DNA of 33,781 bases from a virus: positions 1-33,781 of the IMG/VR virus record IMGVR_UViG_3300045902_000822; one strand, 5' to 3'. Under the pieces are notes generated by a model that saw only the letters and a program-made list of their open reading frames with translations, was not told the DNA's origin and searched no databases. Below, one piece after another: positions 3,613-26,910 of the stretch (position 1 is the first letter of the stretch; each line of letters begins with the position of its first letter). Position numbers and translations under genes: made by a program.

Positions 3613-3995
3613 GTGCGGTCACATTGAACCGCGGAGGCGCGGAGACGCGGAGCGGCAAGGGGGAAATCCCCGCGCCGCAGCGTCTCGGCGTTGAATCCGC
3701 CGCCCTCAACCTGCGCTGGCTGGAGCACGGCCCCGGCGCGGCGGTGCGGCTGCCGCTGCTCACGCTGGAGGCGCTGACGCTCGAGGCGGCCGGACGGGAA
3801 CCGGGCGGCGACTGGGCGGAGGCGGCGCTGGCGGCCGAGCGCTGCCTGGTCGAGCTGCGGGCGCAGCTCCTGCGCCGGCGGCCCAGCCCCGGCGCGCTCG
3901 AGGACGCCGCCCTGCGGGCGTGCGCGGCGCTGATGGCGCGGGTCATCCAAGGCTCCCTTGACCTCGGGGGCACGGCGACGCGGAGGGCGCGATGA
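3609..3995 (+). CDS. Small early protein with repeat-derived N-terminus, unknown
   Basis: 128 residues, not recognised. Residues about 6-30 (LNRGGAETRSG and onward) are encoded by a copy of the dispersed palindromic repeat (3626-3697), so the native protein core probably starts near residue 31. The rest is Leu/Ala/Arg-rich and helical. It has ATGA overlaps at both ends, with the gene before and with the nucleotidyltransferase after. An alternative is that the true start lies beyond the repeat, although no ATG is obvious there. Confidence 0.5.
   Translation: MSAVTLNRGGAETRSGKGEIPAPQRLGVESAALNLRWLEHGPGAAVRLPLLTLEALTLEAAGREPGGDWAEAALAAERCLVELRAQLLRRRPSPGALEDAALRACAALMARVIQGSLDLGGTATRRAR
3626..3697 (+). 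repeat. Dispersed GC-rich palindromic repeat, two-armed copy
   Basis: The left arm gaaccgcggaggcgcggaga begins at 3626. A centre around aagggggaaatcc follows, and the imperfect complementary right arm ends in gttgaatc (3669-3697). It lies entirely within a reading frame. It has the same architecture as the copy at 4701-4778. Confidence 0.75.
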
Positions 3996-4558
3996 AATCC
4001 GCGGACGCCTGGCCCCTGGCCGAATCGGTGAAGAAGGTCCTCTCGCCCTACTGCGCCCAGATCGAGGTCGCCGGCAGCCTCCGGCGCGGGCGTGATTGGG
4101 TCAACGACATCGACCTGGTCTTGCTCCCAAAAGAGGGCCAGTTGGAGCCGTTGAGGGCGCGTTGCAAGCAACGTGCAAAAGTGGTCCTGGACGGACGGCA
4201 GAACCTCATCGTGGAACTCGACGACCGCCACGTCGGGCGTATCCAGGTGGACATCTTCATCGCGCAGCCCGAGTCGCGCGACCTGCTCTCTCACACGCCG
4301 ACAAACTTCGGTTCGCTCCTCCTCTGCCGAACCGGCAGCACGGCGCACAACATCTACCTGGTCGAGCACGCCAAGCGGCTCGGCCTCACCTGGAACCCGT
4401 ATCGCGGAGTGTTCGCCACCGACGGCTCGCTGCTCGCGAGCGCGACCGAGGAGGACATTTTCCGCGTGCTGCAACTCGCTCCGATTCCGCCCGCCCTGCG
4501 CGAGCGCCCCGGCGGTGAAACCGCAAAACCCGTCAACCCTCAACCCGCCCCGAAATGA
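3992..4558 (+). CDS. DNA polymerase beta (PolX)-type nucleotidyltransferase
   Basis: 188 residues with the palm-domain signature of family X polymerases: AGSLRRG (27-33, nucleotide-binding GS motif), NDIDLVL with metal ligands D39 and D41, and IQVDIFI with the third carboxylate D87. GSTAHNIYLVEHAKRLGL (about 116-133) then matches the conserved region after the palm. The fingers and the 8-kDa lyase domain of full PolX enzymes are absent, so this is a minimal palm plus thumb-like protein. It may fill gaps or repair ends during transposition, or nucleotidylate another substrate; the sequence cannot decide. It is coupled by ATGA overlaps to both neighbours. The fold is well supported and the function is inference. 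Confidence 0.8.
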   Translation: MKSADAWPLAESVKKVLSPYCAQIEVAGSLRRGRDWVNDIDLVLLPKEGQLEPLRARCKQRAKVVLDGRQNLIVELDDRHVGRIQVDIFIAQPESRDLLSHTPTNFGSLLLCRTGSTAHNIYLVEHAKRLGLTWNPYRGVFATDGSLLASATEEDIFRVLQLAPIPPALRERPGGETAKPVNPQPAPK

Positions 4559-7580: not shown

Positions 7581-8032
7581 GCCCCGCGCGGACCAGTGAC
7601 CCGCTCATCTGGCTGCCGGCCGACCGCCGGCTGGTGCCGCTCTCCCTCTGCGCGCTGGCTTTGGGCGAGGACATGGCGGGGGCGATGGCGCGGATCGAGG
7701 ACGGCCGGCTGCCCGTGGCCTGGGACATCCGCTCGCCCGGCGCTCGCCGCCGCGAGGTGCGCGTGTGGCGCGGCGCGCTCATCGAGGCGCTCGGCCTCGG
7801 CCCCGCGTATGACCCGCGGCGGGAGCCGGAAGAGCTGGCGCTGCCCGAGCGCGATGTGCGGAGCACGGAGTTGCAGCGCTGGTGGTGCTGCGGCCAGCAG
7901 CTCATCCGCGAGCTGCGCCAGGCCGGCCTGCTGCGCGCCGTCCGCGCGCCGCTCGCGGAGACCGGCCCGAACGCCTTCTGGCTCATTGACCGCGCCAGCG
8001 CGGTGCGCTTCCTCGCGAGCCGCCGGCTGTGA
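7577..8032 (+). CDS. Last early gene, possible DNA-binding protein
   Basis: 151 residues, not recognised. The first part (LIWLPADRRLVPLSLCALAL and following) is beta/alpha, and a WRGALIEALGLG motif lies near residue 65. The C-terminal 60 residues (STELQRWWCCGQQLIRELRQ, then AFWLIDRASAVRFLASRRL) could form a small winged helix. ATG 7577 overlaps the stop of the DnaA-like gene. The stop at 8030-8032 is followed directly by the palindromic upstream element, so this gene probably ends the early operon. Confidence 0.55.
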   Translation: MSPARTSDPLIWLPADRRLVPLSLCALALGEDMAGAMARIEDGRLPVAWDIRSPGARRREVRVWRGALIEALGLGPAYDPRREPEELALPERDVRSTELQRWWCCGQQLIRELRQAGLLRAVRAPLAETGPNAFWLIDRASAVRFLASRRL

Positions 8033-8034
8033 TT

Positions 8035-8087
8035 TTCCGCGCCGCGCGGAACCGTGCCGGCGCCGCGCGGGCGCATAGTCCGCGCGG
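8035..8087 (+). promoter_or_regulatory. Palindromic upstream element, copy A
   Basis: A perfect 8-1-8 palindrome, ttccgcgc-c-gcgcggaa (8035-8051), is followed by ccggcgc and gggcgcatagt and ends 36 bases before ATG 8088. A second element with the same palindrome, the same following blocks and almost the same spacing lies before 15695. A promoter/operator for a phage regulator is the simplest reading. No sigma-70 boxes are obvious. Confidence 0.55.
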
Positions 8088-8483
8088 ATGATTGACACTG
8101 CCTTCCTGGCCAATGCCGCGGCCGGTGGCGACGCCATCGCCTGGGCCAACCTCTCCGTCGCCATCATCACCGGCGTCATCGGCGCCGCCGTGGGCGCGCT
8201 GGGGGTGTGGGCGGCCTTCCGCCGCAACCCGCCGCTGCCCGAGCAGATGCACCGCGACTTCGTCAGCCGGCTGGACTTCGACCATCAGCGCTCCCAGCGG
8301 GACGACGAGGTGCGCCGGCTGCACGAGCGGATCAACAGCTTTGAGGGGAAAATGGCGCAGATCCACCAGGATCACGAGCGCGCCCTGGGCTTGATCGAGG
8401 GGCGGCTCGACGGCATCAGCCGCAAGCTCGACGACCTGAACGACACCTCCATCGCCATGCTCAAGCAAGCCCTGGGAACCTGA
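8088..8483 (+). CDS. Membrane-anchored coiled-coil protein (Mu gp25/DUF2730-like)
   Basis: 131 residues: one transmembrane helix (about 18-44, AWANLSVAIITGVIGAAVGA onward), then a charged coiled coil from about residue 58 to 125 (RLDFDHQRSQRDDEVRRLHE and following). Mu-like phages keep a protein of this shape (DUF2730) just before the small terminase gene. It could be part of a lysis or envelope complex. It starts right after the palindromic upstream element, so it is the first gene of the second operon. The family link is made from architecture and place only. Confidence 0.6.
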   Translation: MIDTAFLANAAAGGDAIAWANLSVAIITGVIGAAVGALGVWAAFRRNPPLPEQMHRDFVSRLDFDHQRSQRDDEVRRLHERINSFEGKMAQIHQDHERALGLIEGRLDGISRKLDDLNDTSIAMLKQALGT

Positions 8484-22122: not shown

Positions 22123-23306
22123 TGCCCGAGAAGAAGGAAATCTGGTTCGCGCCGCGCACGGCCGCCGGCACCGGCCGGCGCACCGACCCCTTCGCTCACA
22201 CGCTGCTCCAGGGCAAGACCGAGGAACTCCACGCCGCCGGCATCGAGCCGATCACCCGGCTGATGCCCGGCGAGTATCCCGTCACCGGCCGGCACAACGG
22301 CTGGGTGCCGCGCGGCAGCGTCTTCGGCGAGACCGGCGCCACCCTCAAGCTGGTCAACCCCGCCTACGCCGGCGGCAAGGTCGCCGTGCTCGGCACCGCG
22401 CTCAACGCCAGCCTCGACGGCGCCCGCTTCGAGAACCTCGTCATTGACTGCAACTCCGCCGCTCTCATTGACGCCCACCCCACCTGCGCCATCGCCGGCC
22501 TCGAGGTCTTCGGCACGGGCATCACCGTCCGCAACGTCACGGTGCGCGCCCCGCACGGCGTCTATGCGGCCGGCCACGAGTGTTTCGCCCTCGCGCTCTT
22601 CTGCCCGACCGGCGTGGCCGCCGACAACCCCCACAACCTCATCGAGGGCTGCGCCGTGCTCGAACCCTCCGGCGACTACGTCAACGCCTTCACCTTCGGC
22701 GGCACCATTGCCGCCGGTGTCGAATACTTCATTGGCGGCGCCCTGCTCCACTGCACCGCCACCGGCAGCTTCGCCGCCGCCGTCAACGTCGCCTGGGCCG
22801 GCCCGCTCGCCGTCACCGGCCTGCGCACCCGCGGCTGCGGCACGGTCCTCTACACCGACACCGGCGCGCTGCGGGGCCTGGCCGTGCGCCAGGGCCAGTT
22901 CCTCGACTGCGCCGGCGGCGGCATCTACCTCAACGGCTGCAACGAGGCCCTCACCGACTCGCGCAACATCGAGATCGAGGACAACCACTTCGAGCTGCGC
23001 CACGGCCACAATCTCGGCGCGATCAACGTCCGCGCCCAGCTCCGCAGCGTGCTCGGCCTGCGCGTGCGCCGCAACCTGGTGAGCAGCGCCCGCAATCGCG
23101 CCGCCCATTCGCTCGGCCAGCCCGAGAGCGGCCGCTGCGCCCACGTCGAGGAGGTCTCGCCCCACCGCGTCCGCGGCGCCGTGGCCGAGGGCAACCTGTT
23201 CGCGCCCGGCTTCGACAACCGCTGGTTTGACAACAGCCAGGCCGAGGTCTGGGCCACCACCGCCCCGGCCAGCTACACCGGCGGCTTCAGCTCGCCGGCT
23301 TACTGA
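22122..23306 (+). CDS. Parallel beta-helix virion protein (tailspike-like)
   Basis: 394 residues. The start (EIWFAPRTAAGTGRRTDPFA) matches the phage pectate-lyase-fold entry, a strand and GTG.RTDPF motif before the helix. Repeated short strands follow (FENLVIDCNSAALI, VRNVTVRAPHGVYAA, HNLIEGCAVLEPSGD, RNIEIEDNHFELRHG, LRVRRNLVS), the rung pattern of a right-handed beta helix. No catalytic residues are evident. Such proteins bind or cut surface polysaccharide. It is set before the tail chaperones and not after the tip genes. The ATG overlaps the previous stop by one base. Confidence 0.75.
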   Translation: MPEKKEIWFAPRTAAGTGRRTDPFAHTLLQGKTEELHAAGIEPITRLMPGEYPVTGRHNGWVPRGSVFGETGATLKLVNPAYAGGKVAVLGTALNASLDGARFENLVIDCNSAALIDAHPTCAIAGLEVFGTGITVRNVTVRAPHGVYAAGHECFALALFCPTGVAADNPHNLIEGCAVLEPSGDYVNAFTFGGTIAAGVEYFIGGALLHCTATGSFAAAVNVAWAGPLAVTGLRTRGCGTVLYTDTGALRGLAVRQGQFLDCAGGGIYLNGCNEALTDSRNIEIEDNHFELRHGHNLGAINVRAQLRSVLGLRVRRNLVSSARNRAAHSLGQPESGRCAHVEEVSPHRVRGAVAEGNLFAPGFDNRWFDNSQAEVWATTAPASYTGGFSSPAY

Positions 23307-23346
23307 ATCTCAAATCTCAAATCTCAAATCTCAAATCCCAAATCCC
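23306..23346 (+). repeat. Heptamer tandem repeat in the intergenic gap
   Basis: aatctca is repeated about five times, the last copies changing to aatccca, filling the gap up to the ATG at 23347. This is the only AT-rich simple repeat in the window. Confidence 0.85.
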
Positions 23347-23733
23347 ATGAACCTTCCTCCCCTCGCCGCCTTCCAGGGCGCCCCGCTCACCGTCCAGGTC
23401 CGCGCCCCCGACGGCTCGGTGCAGCCCTTTGCGTTGCAGGTGCGCGCCATCCCCGCGCGCGATTACCCGCAGTATCTCCAGGTCGTCAACGACGAGCTGC
23501 GCGCCGCCGAGTTCGTCACCGGCCAGCCGCGCGGCTGGGCCGACACCCTCACGCCCGAGAGTCTGGGTGAGCTGATCGAGCTGAGCGAGGAGATCAACCT
23601 CGGTTTTTTTTCGTGGGTGCAGCGGGCGCGGCGGCGCGCCGAGCGGCTCATGCCCGGCATGACGGAGCGGGCGGTGCGGGAGGCGATCCGTTCGGACGCT
23701 GGCTCTGCCGCGCCGCCGTCGAGTGCGGGCTGA
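23347..23733 (+). CDS. Tail assembly chaperone, short (gpG-type) product
   Basis: 128 residues. Placed between tail tube and tape measure, as tail assembly chaperones are. Beta-rich start (APLTVQVRAPDGSVQPFALQ), then a helical part (DYPQYLQVVNDELRAAEFVT and ESLGELIELSEEINLGFFSW). It contains a T8 run at 23604-23611 before the overlap with a second reading frame; shifting there gives the longer fusion. The zero-frame tail (RARRRAERLMPGMTERAVRE) is long enough to be a real domain end. The chaperone coats the tape measure during tail assembly. Confidence 0.75.
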   Translation: MNLPPLAAFQGAPLTVQVRAPDGSVQPFALQVRAIPARDYPQYLQVVNDELRAAEFVTGQPRGWADTLTPESLGELIELSEEINLGFFSWVQRARRRAERLMPGMTERAVREAIRSDAGSAAPPSSAG

Positions 23734-23927
23734 CGCCCGAGCAGGCGCTGGCCCTGCCGCCCGGCGCGCTGCGGATGCTCGAGCGCGCGGCGCAGGAACG
23801 CGCCGCCGGCCAGGCGCTGCTGGCGCACCAGGGCGTGCTGGCCGCCGTGGCGGCCGTGTGGAGCAGGAACGGCGGGAGCTTCGCCGAGCGGTTCCGGGCG
23901 GAACTGCTCAAGGCGCGGACGGACTAG
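23347..23927 (+). CDS. Tail assembly chaperone, frameshift fusion (gpGT-type)
   Basis: Product of a -1 shift at 23604-23610: 88 residues from the first frame joined to 105 residues of the second frame, total about 193. The second-frame part after the overlap is a clean helical domain (DPFGRWLCRAAVECGLTPEQ, ALALPPGALRMLERAAQERA, FAERFRAELLKA) that binds the tape measure in lambda-type systems. A GTG at 23613 could instead start this frame alone, but the residues before DPFG are Gly/Ala filler, which favours the shift. Conserved frameshifts in this gene pair are established for many dsDNA phages. Confidence 0.7.
23604..23610 (+). promoter_or_regulatory. Probable -1 programmed frameshift site (T TTT TTT)
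   Basis: The zero frame reads GGT TTT TTT TCG, so bases 23604-23610 form an ideal X XXY YYZ heptamer. A -1 slip moves ribosomes from the frame of 23347 exactly into the downstream frame, which is open to 23927. Confidence 0.75.
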
Positions 23928-24097
23928 CGGAAAAACACCTTGAAGAAGGCCCACCAAAAAAGCCAGATGGCCCCGAAGATAAGTCCCAGAATCGGGGCGC
24001 CGCCCCACACATCGAACTCCCAGCACAGCCACCCGAACAGGAACAGGGCCGGCAGGAGCACGGAGAACCCCCGGATGGCCGCCTCGGTCTTGGACAT
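23924..24097 (-). CDS. Small two-helix membrane protein on the opposite strand
   Basis: 57 residues on the minus strand, ATG at 24097-24095, TAG at 23926-23924, overlapping the end of the chaperone frame by four bases. Sequence features: MSKTEAAIRGFSVLLPALFL, then a Trp-containing loop and GLIFGAIWLFWWAFFKVF, giving two hydrophobic helices (about 11-26 and 36-54) and a basic end. An AAGG-like Shine-Dalgarno site lies about 5 bases before the ATG. The whole 187-base gap without a plus-strand gene is accounted for by this gene, which supports it. Function unknown; superinfection exclusion or an accessory holin are candidates. Confidence 0.6.
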   Translation of the reverse strand: MSKTEAAIRGFSVLLPALFLFGWLCWEFDVWGGAPILGLIFGAIWLFWWAFFKVFFR

Positions 24098-24114
24098 GAA
24101 CCTTACCTAACCCC

Positions 24115-26910
24115 ATGCCCGCGCAAAATCAAATCGCCATCGCCATCAAGGCGGACACGGCCGAGCTGGTGCGGTTGCAATCCGAGTTTGTCCGCCTGCG
24201 CGACTCCATGCGCGGCGTGGCCGGCATGACCCAACTGGGGGCGATCTTTTCCGCCGCCGGCCTCGCGGTCCACTCGCTCACCAGCCAGATCGCCGCCGCC
24301 GCCACCGGCTCCGAACGCCTCGCCGACGAGCTGGACAACCTCCGCCAGCGCCTCAAGATCAGCGCCTTTGACGCCCAGGTCTTCGGCGCCGCCCTCGCCG
24401 ACTCCGGCGCCGGCCTCGGCGCCCTCCAGACCGGCGTCACCTTCCTGACCCGCGCCCTGGCCGACGCCGCCCGCGGGGCGAAGGAACCCAACGATGCCCT
24501 CCAGCGCCTCGGCCTCTCCGCCGCGGCCCTCGCCCGCCTCCCGCTGCCCGCCCAGCTCGAGGCCATCGCCCGCGCCTTCACCGCCGCGAGTGATCCGGCC
24601 GACGCCCTCGATGCCGTGATGCAACTGCTCGGCCGCGGCTCCACCGAGCTGCTGCCGCTGCTCCGCCGCCTCGCCGCCGAGGGCTTCGCCGGCCTGAGCC
24701 AGAGCGCCCAGGCCACCCGCGGCATCCTCTCCGATGAGCTCGTGGCCGCGCTCGACGCCGTGGGCGACCGCGCCGCCGCGGCCCAGGAGCGCCTCACCAA
24801 AAACCTCGCCCGCGCCAACCTCACCCTCGCCACCTGGCGCGCCCGGCTCGTCGAGCTGGCCGCCGACCACACCCCGATCATCGAGGCGGTGAGCCTCGGC
24901 GCCGTCGGGGCCGGCCTGGGCGCGGCGATCACCCGCGCCGTGCCGCTGGCTTTGGCCGCCATTGGGCTGCCGCTCAGGTCGCGGATGTTCTCGCTCGGCA
25001 GCGTCCTCGGCCAGGCCTTCTCCGGCGCCTTTATCGTCGGCGCCGGCTACGCCATCATTCAGGGCATCACCGCCGCCGTCATCGAGGCCTCCGACCGCGC
25101 CGCCGCCCAGGTCAAGACCCAGGTGGACGCCTGGACGGCCAGCCTCGCCCGAGTCCGCGGTGTCCGCAGCGAGGAGGACCTCGCCCGCGAACGCGCGCGC
25201 CTCACCGCCGAGATCGCCGCCCTCGAAAAGCGCCGCGATGAAGTCCGCCAGCGCAACACCCAGCCCGACAGCTTCACCGAGTTCGGCGTCATCCCCGGCG
25301 GCCTCAGCCGCGAGGGCAAAGATCAGATCGCCAGCCTCGAACTGGATCTCCGCCGGCTGCGCGGCCAGCTCGCCGTCGTCAACGACGAGCGGGGCCGCGC
25401 CCTTGTGCTCGCCAACCAGGAGGCCGACGCCGCCGCCCGCAAGGCCGCCCTCGAAAAGGAGGCCGCCCTTTGGCTCAGGGAGAACCGCGCCGCCGCCGAG
25501 GACAACGCCCGCGCCTACGCCATCGGCCTGCTCCCGCTCGAGGACCAGCTCGCCGCCCTGCGCCAGATCCGCTCCGAGCTGGAGTCGCAGCAGCAGGCCA
25601 TCCTCGACGATGCCACCATCGGCGCCGACGAGCGCGCCCGCCGGCTCATCCAGTTGCGCGCCCGCCTACTGGAGATCGAGGCCAAAATCGCCCAGACCCG
25701 TCAGGCCGCCGACGCCGAGGCCGCCGGCCGCGCGAGCGCGCTGGCCACCCGCCAGGACCGCGAGAACGCCCTCCGCCTGGCCGTGCTCGAAAACCAGCAG
25801 CGCTTCCTCGCCGGCGATCCCTGGGAAAACCCCGCCCGCAAACAGGAGCGGCTCCTCGCCCTGCTCCGCGAGCAGAACGCCGAGATCGAGCGCCAGATCC
25901 GCCTCCAGCTCGAACGCCTCGCCGCCGCCGAACACGCCGGCGATGCCGATGCCGCCCAGGCCGCCCGCGAGCGCATCGAGGACCTCGATCGGCGGCAGGA
26001 CGAGACCGGCCGCGCCACCGCCACCCTGCAAAACACCAGCCCCGGCTTCGCCCAGACCCAGGGCCTCATCCAGACCAACCTCAACCCCCAGACCGGCGCG
26101 CTCATCAACCCGTGGATGGAGCTGGACACCTTCATCTCCGGCACGTTGCAGACCTCGATGAACGGACTCTCCGAGTCCATCACCGGCCTCATCACCGGCA
26201 CGCAAAGCTGGGGCGAGGTCTGGCTGCGCGTCCAGAACCAGATCCTCGCCGGCATCGTCCAGATGATCCTCGAATACACCGTCTTCTACCAGGTGCGCCG
26301 CCTGCTCGATACGCTCTTCCACCGCACCAGCCAGACCAACATCGCGGCCACCGCCGCCGTCGGGAACACCGCCGCCGCCACCACCGCCGCCACCCAGTCG
26401 GCGGCCGCCGCCACCGTGGCCGCCGCCGGCGCCCCGGCCGCCGCCGCCACCTCGATCTGGTCCTTCGGCTCCGCCGCCGGCCTCGGCCTCGCCCTCGCCC
26501 TCGCCGCCATCGGCGCCATCATCGGCGCGCTGGCCTTCGCCGAGGGCGGCATCGTCCCCGGCGCCGGCGGCCCGACCGCCGATGACCGCCTGGCCTGGCT
26601 CAGTTCGGGCGAGGGCGTCCTGACCGCCCGCGCCGTCCGCCATTATGGCGGCGCCTCGTTCGTTGCCGCCCTCAACGACCTCGCGCTCCCGGCCCGGCCC
26701 GATCCCGGCCCGGCCCTCGCCGCCGCCCTCCCCGGCGGCCTCGAACCCGCCGCCGCCCCCAACGTCAACGTCGCCGCCCCCACGCCCCAGATCTTCATCG
26801 TCCAGAGCGAGGAGGAGGCCCTGCGCGCCCTCGAAACCACCGGCGGCCGCGCCGTCATCCGCCGCATCGTCGGCCAGCAACTCCTCGACCTCGGCGTCGA
26901 AACCCGATGA
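24115..26910 (+). CDS. Tape measure protein
   Basis: 931 residues, the longest protein here, and it sets tail length. N-terminal ALVRLQSEFVRLRDSMRG-like helices; hydrophobic segments near 262-290 and 300-320 (AVPLALAAIGLPL, GAFIVGAGYAIIQGITAAVI); a long charged coiled coil from about 335 to 640; then an Ala-rich region with another hydrophobic run (about 790-818, GLGLALALAAIGAIIGALAF), FAEGGIVPGAGGPTADD (a common tape-measure motif) and a helical end. ATG 24115 has a C-rich leader. The hydrophobic parts may insert in the host membrane during DNA entry. Confidence 0.92.
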   Translation: MPAQNQIAIAIKADTAELVRLQSEFVRLRDSMRGVAGMTQLGAIFSAAGLAVHSLTSQIAAAATGSERLADELDNLRQRLKISAFDAQVFGAALADSGAGLGALQTGVTFLTRALADAARGAKEPNDALQRLGLSAAALARLPLPAQLEAIARAFTAASDPADALDAVMQLLGRGSTELLPLLRRLAAEGFAGLSQSAQATRGILSDELVAALDAVGDRAAAAQERLTKNLARANLTLATWRARLVELAADHTPIIEAVSLGAVGAGLGAAITRAVPLALAAIGLPLRSRMFSLGSVLGQAFSGAFIVGAGYAIIQGITAAVIEASDRAAAQVKTQVDAWTASLARVRGVRSEEDLARERARLTAEIAALEKRRDEVRQRNTQPDSFTEFGVIPGGLSREGKDQIASLELDLRRLRGQLAVVNDERGRALVLANQEADAAARKAALEKEAALWLRENRAAAEDNARAYAIGLLPLEDQLAALRQIRSELESQQQAILDDATIGADERARRLIQLRARLLEIEAKIAQTRQAADAEAAGRASALATRQDRENALRLAVLENQQRFLAGDPWENPARKQERLLALLREQNAEIERQIRLQLERLAAAEHAGDADAAQAARERIEDLDRRQDETGRATATLQNTSPGFAQTQGLIQTNLNPQTGALINPWMELDTFISGTLQTSMNGLSESITGLITGTQSWGEVWLRVQNQILAGIVQMILEYTVFYQVRRLLDTLFHRTSQTNIAATAAVGNTAAATTAATQSAAAATVAAAGAPAAAATSIWSFGSAAGLGLALALAAIGAIIGALAFAEGGIVPGAGGPTADDRLAWLSSGEGVLTARAVRHYGGASFVAALNDLALPARPDPGPALAAALPGGLEPAAAPNVNVAAPTPQIFIVQSEEEALRALETTGGRAVIRRIVGQQLLDLGVETR

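Follow-up and report, generated by a model that had tools for sequence, protein, structure and literature searches.

Changes in the tail tube and/or tape measure protein overcome the exclusion exerted by two phage membrane proteins, gp15 of HK97 and Ltp of TP-J34 (PMC10883804). SNIPE is associated at the inner membrane with the tape measure protein (PMC13190303), and Tab, from the P. aeruginosa temperate phage JBD26, targets the tape measure protein and blocks tail assembly (PMC10884400). A moron at the junction between the tail assembly chaperone and tape measure genes is already known, from HK97. Here we describe the same junction in an IMG/VR virus record of 33,781 bases and 71.6% GC, referred to as the window, where it holds a gene on the opposite strand for a 57-residue predicted membrane protein, P0001.

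P0001 resembles HK97 gp15 in being a small predicted membrane protein whose gene, in a temperate siphovirus, is placed exactly between the frameshifted chaperone and tape measure genes. However, the gp15 gene is sense-oriented with its own putative terminator, whereas that of P0001 is antisense, and gp15 has a YebO domain (PF13974, 1.2e-08), whereas P0001, with two predicted helices, does not match YebO. The two proteins gave no meaningful alignment, and we rejected P0001 as a gp15/YebO family member because no Pfam family matched it at E ≤ 1. Ltp and SNIPE offer a likeness in their action at the cell envelope, involving the tape measure protein of the incoming phage (PMC10883804, PMC13190303), and Tab in being encoded by a temperate phage and having the tape measure protein as its target (PMC10884400). 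The sequences and positions of all three are nonetheless unrelated to those of P0001; unlike P0001, Ltp is a lipoprotein, SNIPE is a GIY-YIG nuclease, and Tab, 83 residues long and encoded between the terminase genes, acts by blocking assembly. In its orientation, P0001 has counterparts in the antisense morons of lambdoid phages, such as the small gene for HK97 gp23, a "reverse moron product", which also lies opposite the late operon strand among late genes but is positioned after gene I.

The phage in the window is transposable and Mu-like: it encodes transposition proteins resembling MuA and MuB, as well as Gam and Mu-type portal and F proteins, and its tail genes are of the siphovirus type. 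Its early region also encodes a DNA polymerase beta-type thumb/palm protein (3992–4558; PF14791, PF14792), and short 7-base tandem repeats occur at or near gene ends at 23306–23344 and 2008–2076 (AATCTCA, AAGGTCC). No close relatives were found in viral and genome contigs with the tape measure, portal, MuB and tail-tip proteins as queries, and relatives were reached solely by genome search, at about 30% identity. Using the tail tip protein, we found prophage relatives (~25–35% identity) in 10 of 387 genomes across the phylum Verrucomicrobiota, the same ten all being recovered within one order, and in 27 of 252 genomes of one family. As these tail-tip relatives are prophages in Verrucomicrobiota genomes, the host of the window phage probably belongs to this phylum. 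The longer AATCTCA array is not a host signature, because it was also found in genomes of many phyla, and the scan for this pattern was used only to pick Verrucomicrobiota genomes as search centres; beyond the phylum, our search covered phages, viral contigs and exact peptides. The tail modules of the relatives are mostly ordered as chaperone, frameshift extension, tape measure, tail proteins, NlpC/P60 and tail tip. Three of these loci (L128 in genome G264, L127 in G014 and L180 in G779) contain one in-frame TGA inside the tail-tip match, reflecting decay, sequencing error or recoding. Two genomes carry prophage tail modules in duplicate (L200/L208 in G775, 99.97% identical; L192/L193 in G841, 99.4%) over 14–15 kb, as expected of replicative transposition.

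The features at the junction are listed in Table 1. The antisense frame opens with ATG at 24097 on the minus strand and ends with a stop codon at 23924, its translation being MSKTEAAIRGFSVLLPALFLFGWLCWEFDVWGGAPILGLIFGAIWLFWWAFFKVFFR; coordinates and translation agree exactly with the original prediction of a 57-residue antisense protein. That prediction also held that the gene fills a 187-base gap, and the interval from the end of the chaperone frame to the tape measure start (23928–24114) indeed measures 187 bases. At one end, the antisense stop (CTA on the plus strand) overlaps the chaperone-frame stop TAG (23925–23927) within CTAG, and at the other, the start lies 17 bases ahead of the tape measure ATG (24115). 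The ribosome-binding-like AAGG noted earlier is present 3 bases upstream of the antisense ATG, with AGG at 8 bases, and is weak. No sigma-70-like promoter and no minus-strand terminator were recognised for the gene, the promoter search having used the sigma-70 consensus, which may not be that of the host. Within the chaperone gene, the T8 run fits a putative −1 programmed frameshift; a terminator-like call at 23586–23602 coincides with this place and is probably spurious.

Table 1 Features of the chaperone–tape measure junction in the window.
Feature	Coordinates	Strand	Basis or remark
Tail assembly chaperone	23347–23733	+	phrog_1442, E = 0.0017; homologues at the same place in relatives
T8 slippery run, putative −1 frameshift, G-GT type, fusing the chaperone to the frame ending at 23927	23604–23611	+	Frame arithmetic; fused translation
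chap2, chaperone frameshift extension; adjoins the antisense gene on the left	23613–23927	+	Downstream frame kept in relatives
CTAG palindrome common to both convergent stop codons	23924–23927	.	Also in L141, L202, L166 and L198; TTAA in L165
Gene for 57-aa predicted two-helix membrane protein (antisense moron)	23924–24097	−	Open frame, codon usage, hydrophobicity, helical hairpin model
Leader, from antisense start to tape measure start; minus strand GGGGTTAGGTAAGGTTC, weak AAGG/AGG	24098–24114	−	
Tail tape measure protein, right neighbour	24115–26910	+	phrog_2854, E = 2.5e-14, and other tape measure families

The length of this frame is by itself weak evidence for a gene, because the window is GC-rich and contains 130 minus-strand open reading frames of at least 40 aa. 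In dinucleotide shuffles of the gap, a frame covering 80% of it arose in 9.2% of trials, and one with this cover and a hydrophobicity equal to that of P0001 in 0.55%. Codon usage favours the antisense frame by +0.42 bits per codon compared to 0.04 for the best plus-strand frame, the largest excess among the 130 minus-strand frames, in keeping with its earlier description as the single convincing minus-strand gene. The GC content at third positions (GC3) is 0.88 in P0001 and 0.92 in the phage's genes; as GC3 alone cannot separate the antisense frame from the plus frame with which it shares third positions, we relied on codon usage together with amino-acid content. A sense-strand gene in the gap was rejected, since this plus frame, while open in the window, contains extra stops in L165, L166, L170 and L200; another plus frame across the gap is broken in L166, L170 and L192. 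A single-sequence AlphaFold model (mean pLDDT 83) folds P0001 into a helical hairpin, with helices at residues 3–30 and 35–55, and with the hydrophobicity of both helices this is in line with the two-helix membrane protein proposed earlier. Basic residues lie near both ends (K3, R9 and K53, R57) and are missing from the loop, which by the positive-inside rule suggests that both termini are cytoplasmic. Homologues of P0001 were absent from viral contigs and INPHARED (tblastn) and from the 252 genomes of the relatives' family, where the best hits (E = 0.014) were short pieces, some with stops; nor did it match Pfam, PHROGs or PADLOC. Considering all the evidence, we regard P0001 as almost certainly a real protein-coding gene.

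Comparison with the prophage relatives revealed how closely such genes are tied to this junction. We examined 27 distinct chaperone–tape measure junctions, two further loci being near-identical copies. Thirteen junctions are closed (at most 30 bases, or overlapping), and none of these contains an antisense membrane gene. Eleven leave a gap of 114–213 bases, nine of which (the window, L141, L202, L165, L166, L170, L192, L198 and L200) are filled by an antisense open reading frame of 41–68 aa whose product has one or two strongly hydrophobic segments, predicted to be transmembrane helices. The exceptions are L138, where a sense frame fills the gap, and L204, where we saw no hydrophobic frame. 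In all nine filled junctions, the antisense start overlaps the tape measure start or sits within 20 bases of it; CATG is common to the divergent start codons in three (L165, L198, L200), and CTAG or TTAA to the convergent stops in six. Across the 527 kb of these loci, we counted 51 antisense frames of 38–75 aa with comparable hydrophobicity, of which nine begin no more than 40 bases from a tape measure start, compared to ~0.2 expected from their density.

Other genes occupy the same slot in some relatives. On the antisense strand these are a zeta-toxin-like P-loop protein (L161, oriented, 7743–8264) and a 278-aa protein (L163, oriented, 244–1080); on the sense strand, L132 (4696–5679) and L135 (3889–4872) encode a 327-aa protein that combines an Endonuclease_NS domain (PF01223) with a single membrane helix. 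The latter gene is missing from the closely related L133 and L134, and L134 and L135 reside in one genome (G232). Its slot position and membrane anchor recall SNIPE, although the nuclease domain differs. In L136, a very hydrophobic 32-aa antisense frame with a GTG start (7776–7874) lies over the end of the extended chaperone frame and may be what is left of a gene like those for the slot hairpins; because of this overlap it was left out of the counts. Among better-characterised phages with the same tail-tip type, the junction is closed to 3–9 bases in FtMidnight, KL1, Birtae and AhaSv; it is also closed in D3112, and in Fc02 it leaves 95 bases.

Two of the relatives allowed selection on the antisense frame to be measured. 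The antisense products of L141 and L202 are homologous (67% identical), and the 36 substitutions between them are distributed 8/7/21 over codon positions 1/2/3 of the antisense frame (P = 0.0018), with dN 0.25 and dS 0.83 (dN/dS ~0.3) and with indels of whole codons. This pattern indicates that purifying selection acts on the frame, which evolves as a protein. The sense frame with the same third positions shows a similar skew (dN 0.31, dS 0.68), and its counterpart contains extra stops in four other loci. L192 encodes a third, more distant homologue, 36% identical in the alignment, and its tape measure protein is 46% identical to that of L141. A profile built from the three proteins gave no strong match beyond their own junctions and the L193 copy. 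In the remaining lineages, the small slot proteins lack convincing sequence similarity and have in common their length, topology and, in most cases, a basic tail. Conservation of the frame, which the original prediction had offered as a check, is thereby borne out in part: one homologous pair is under purifying selection and has a distant homologue, while the exact protein of the window is not conserved in the sets searched. Direct selection was measured on L141/L202 only, and the support for the window's own frame is its codon usage, hydrophobicity and position.

We then considered whether the junction behaves as a moron slot, that is, whether an extra gene lies between genes that are otherwise adjacent. 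The chaperone and tape measure genes are at most 30 bases apart in 13 relatives and are separated by the antisense gene in the window and eight relatives. On a tree of 25 tail-tip proteins, which excludes L141, L202 and L140, the presence of the antisense membrane gene requires five changes, four of which are forced by well-supported branches, and the sister loci L170 and L206 differ, the former having the gene and the latter lacking it. Because of insertion at the exact junction and repeated gain and loss, we identify the junction as a moron slot, and P0001, which occupies it, is a moron in the positional sense. The moron-type reading put forward in the original prediction, which named superinfection exclusion and envelope proteins as examples of such genes, gains support from a slot, orientation, size and membrane topology that recur in eight other prophages, and from gain and loss at one junction. 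As late transcription runs the opposite way, P0001 is probably a moron expressed in the lysogen.

Of the functions considered for P0001, we judge superinfection exclusion at the stage of DNA entry to be the most likely, with a probability of roughly 45%, because HK97 gp15 and other tape-measure-targeting proteins set the precedent. The antisense gene would be transcribed from the prophage, outside late transcription, and the hairpin protein would enter the inner membrane of the lysogen, where, as with HK97 gp15, it may hinder an incoming related siphovirus from passing its DNA by way of the tape measure protein. When modules are exchanged, the exclusion factor would stay with its type of target through its linkage to the tape measure gene. 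Counting against exclusion, the near-identical pairs L200/L208 and L192/L193 show that a second copy can be present despite carriage of the gene, although replicative transposition within the cell would explain such copies. Further counterpoints are that no homologue of P0001 was found and no promoter or terminator recognised for it, that it lacks similarity to gp15/YebO, and that gp15 is sense-oriented.

Other explanations account for parts of these observations. The gene might serve lysogenic conversion of another kind, as a small membrane regulator or envelope protein altering host fitness through transport, envelope stress, lipid or the cell wall. Tiny two-helix proteins with basic tails would suit many such roles, and the slot sequences are largely unrelated between prophages and include non-membrane genes; however, the gene beside the slot is always that of the tape measure protein, at which known membrane exclusion proteins are aimed, and a general host-fitness gene would have no reason for so strict a junction preference. 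We consider this explanation the next in likelihood, possible but unlikely. Alternatively, the product might be secondary to regulatory antisense transcription, in which the late tail genes are damped in the lysogen by minus-strand RNA running through the gap or by transcripts initiated within the tape measure gene. The placement of all nine antisense starts at the tape measure start would give such an RNA a leader antisense to the tape measure translation start. RNA action would need neither the hydrophobic product, which is retained in every case, nor the codon-position-dependent substitution of L141/L202, and 13 relatives lack the antisense gene, making this explanation improbable.

A lysis function, with P0001 as a small class II-type holin or antiholin, appears less probable again. 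Class II holins have two helices, both ends inside and a basic tail, an outline shared by P0001. Holins are made late, whereas P0001 opposes the late operon and lies between tail genes, and a sense holin-like candidate at 8088–8483 (weak Pfam holin match, E = 0.057) is found ahead of the packaging genes, in the place of the holin–endolysin genes of the Mu-like phage Fc02. P0001 does not fit the gene context of a class II-type holin, among late genes and near the endolysin, as it lies on the opposite strand among tail genes. It is highly improbable that the frame is no gene at all and has stayed open by chance in GC-rich intergenic DNA; no homologue of P0001 was found and long antisense frames are common at this GC content, but the shuffles, the codon usage, the recurrence at the same junction and the selection on the homologous pair all argue for a gene.

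In the limited literature that we searched, we found no description of the antisense orientation of a gene at this junction, of its repeated filling with largely unrelated hairpins, or of the overlapping starts and stops. Annotation easily overlooks small antisense genes within the late operons of phages, and here one slot recurs in phages of a phylum whose viruses have received little study, holding membrane hairpins that often have no detectable sequence similarity. The slot hairpins are concrete, testable candidate exclusion proteins, encoded beside the tape measure protein, their presumed target and one at which several recently described defences are also directed. A broader and doubtful extension is that in Mu-like temperate phages of Verrucomicrobiota the junction is a dedicated exclusion slot, in which unrelated antisense hairpins are swapped, each specific for a tape measure class, and in which abutting or overlapping starts would make expression of the lysogenic excluder and of the late tape measure gene mutually exclusive. 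If true, the slot would constitute a tape-measure-linked self/non-self locus.
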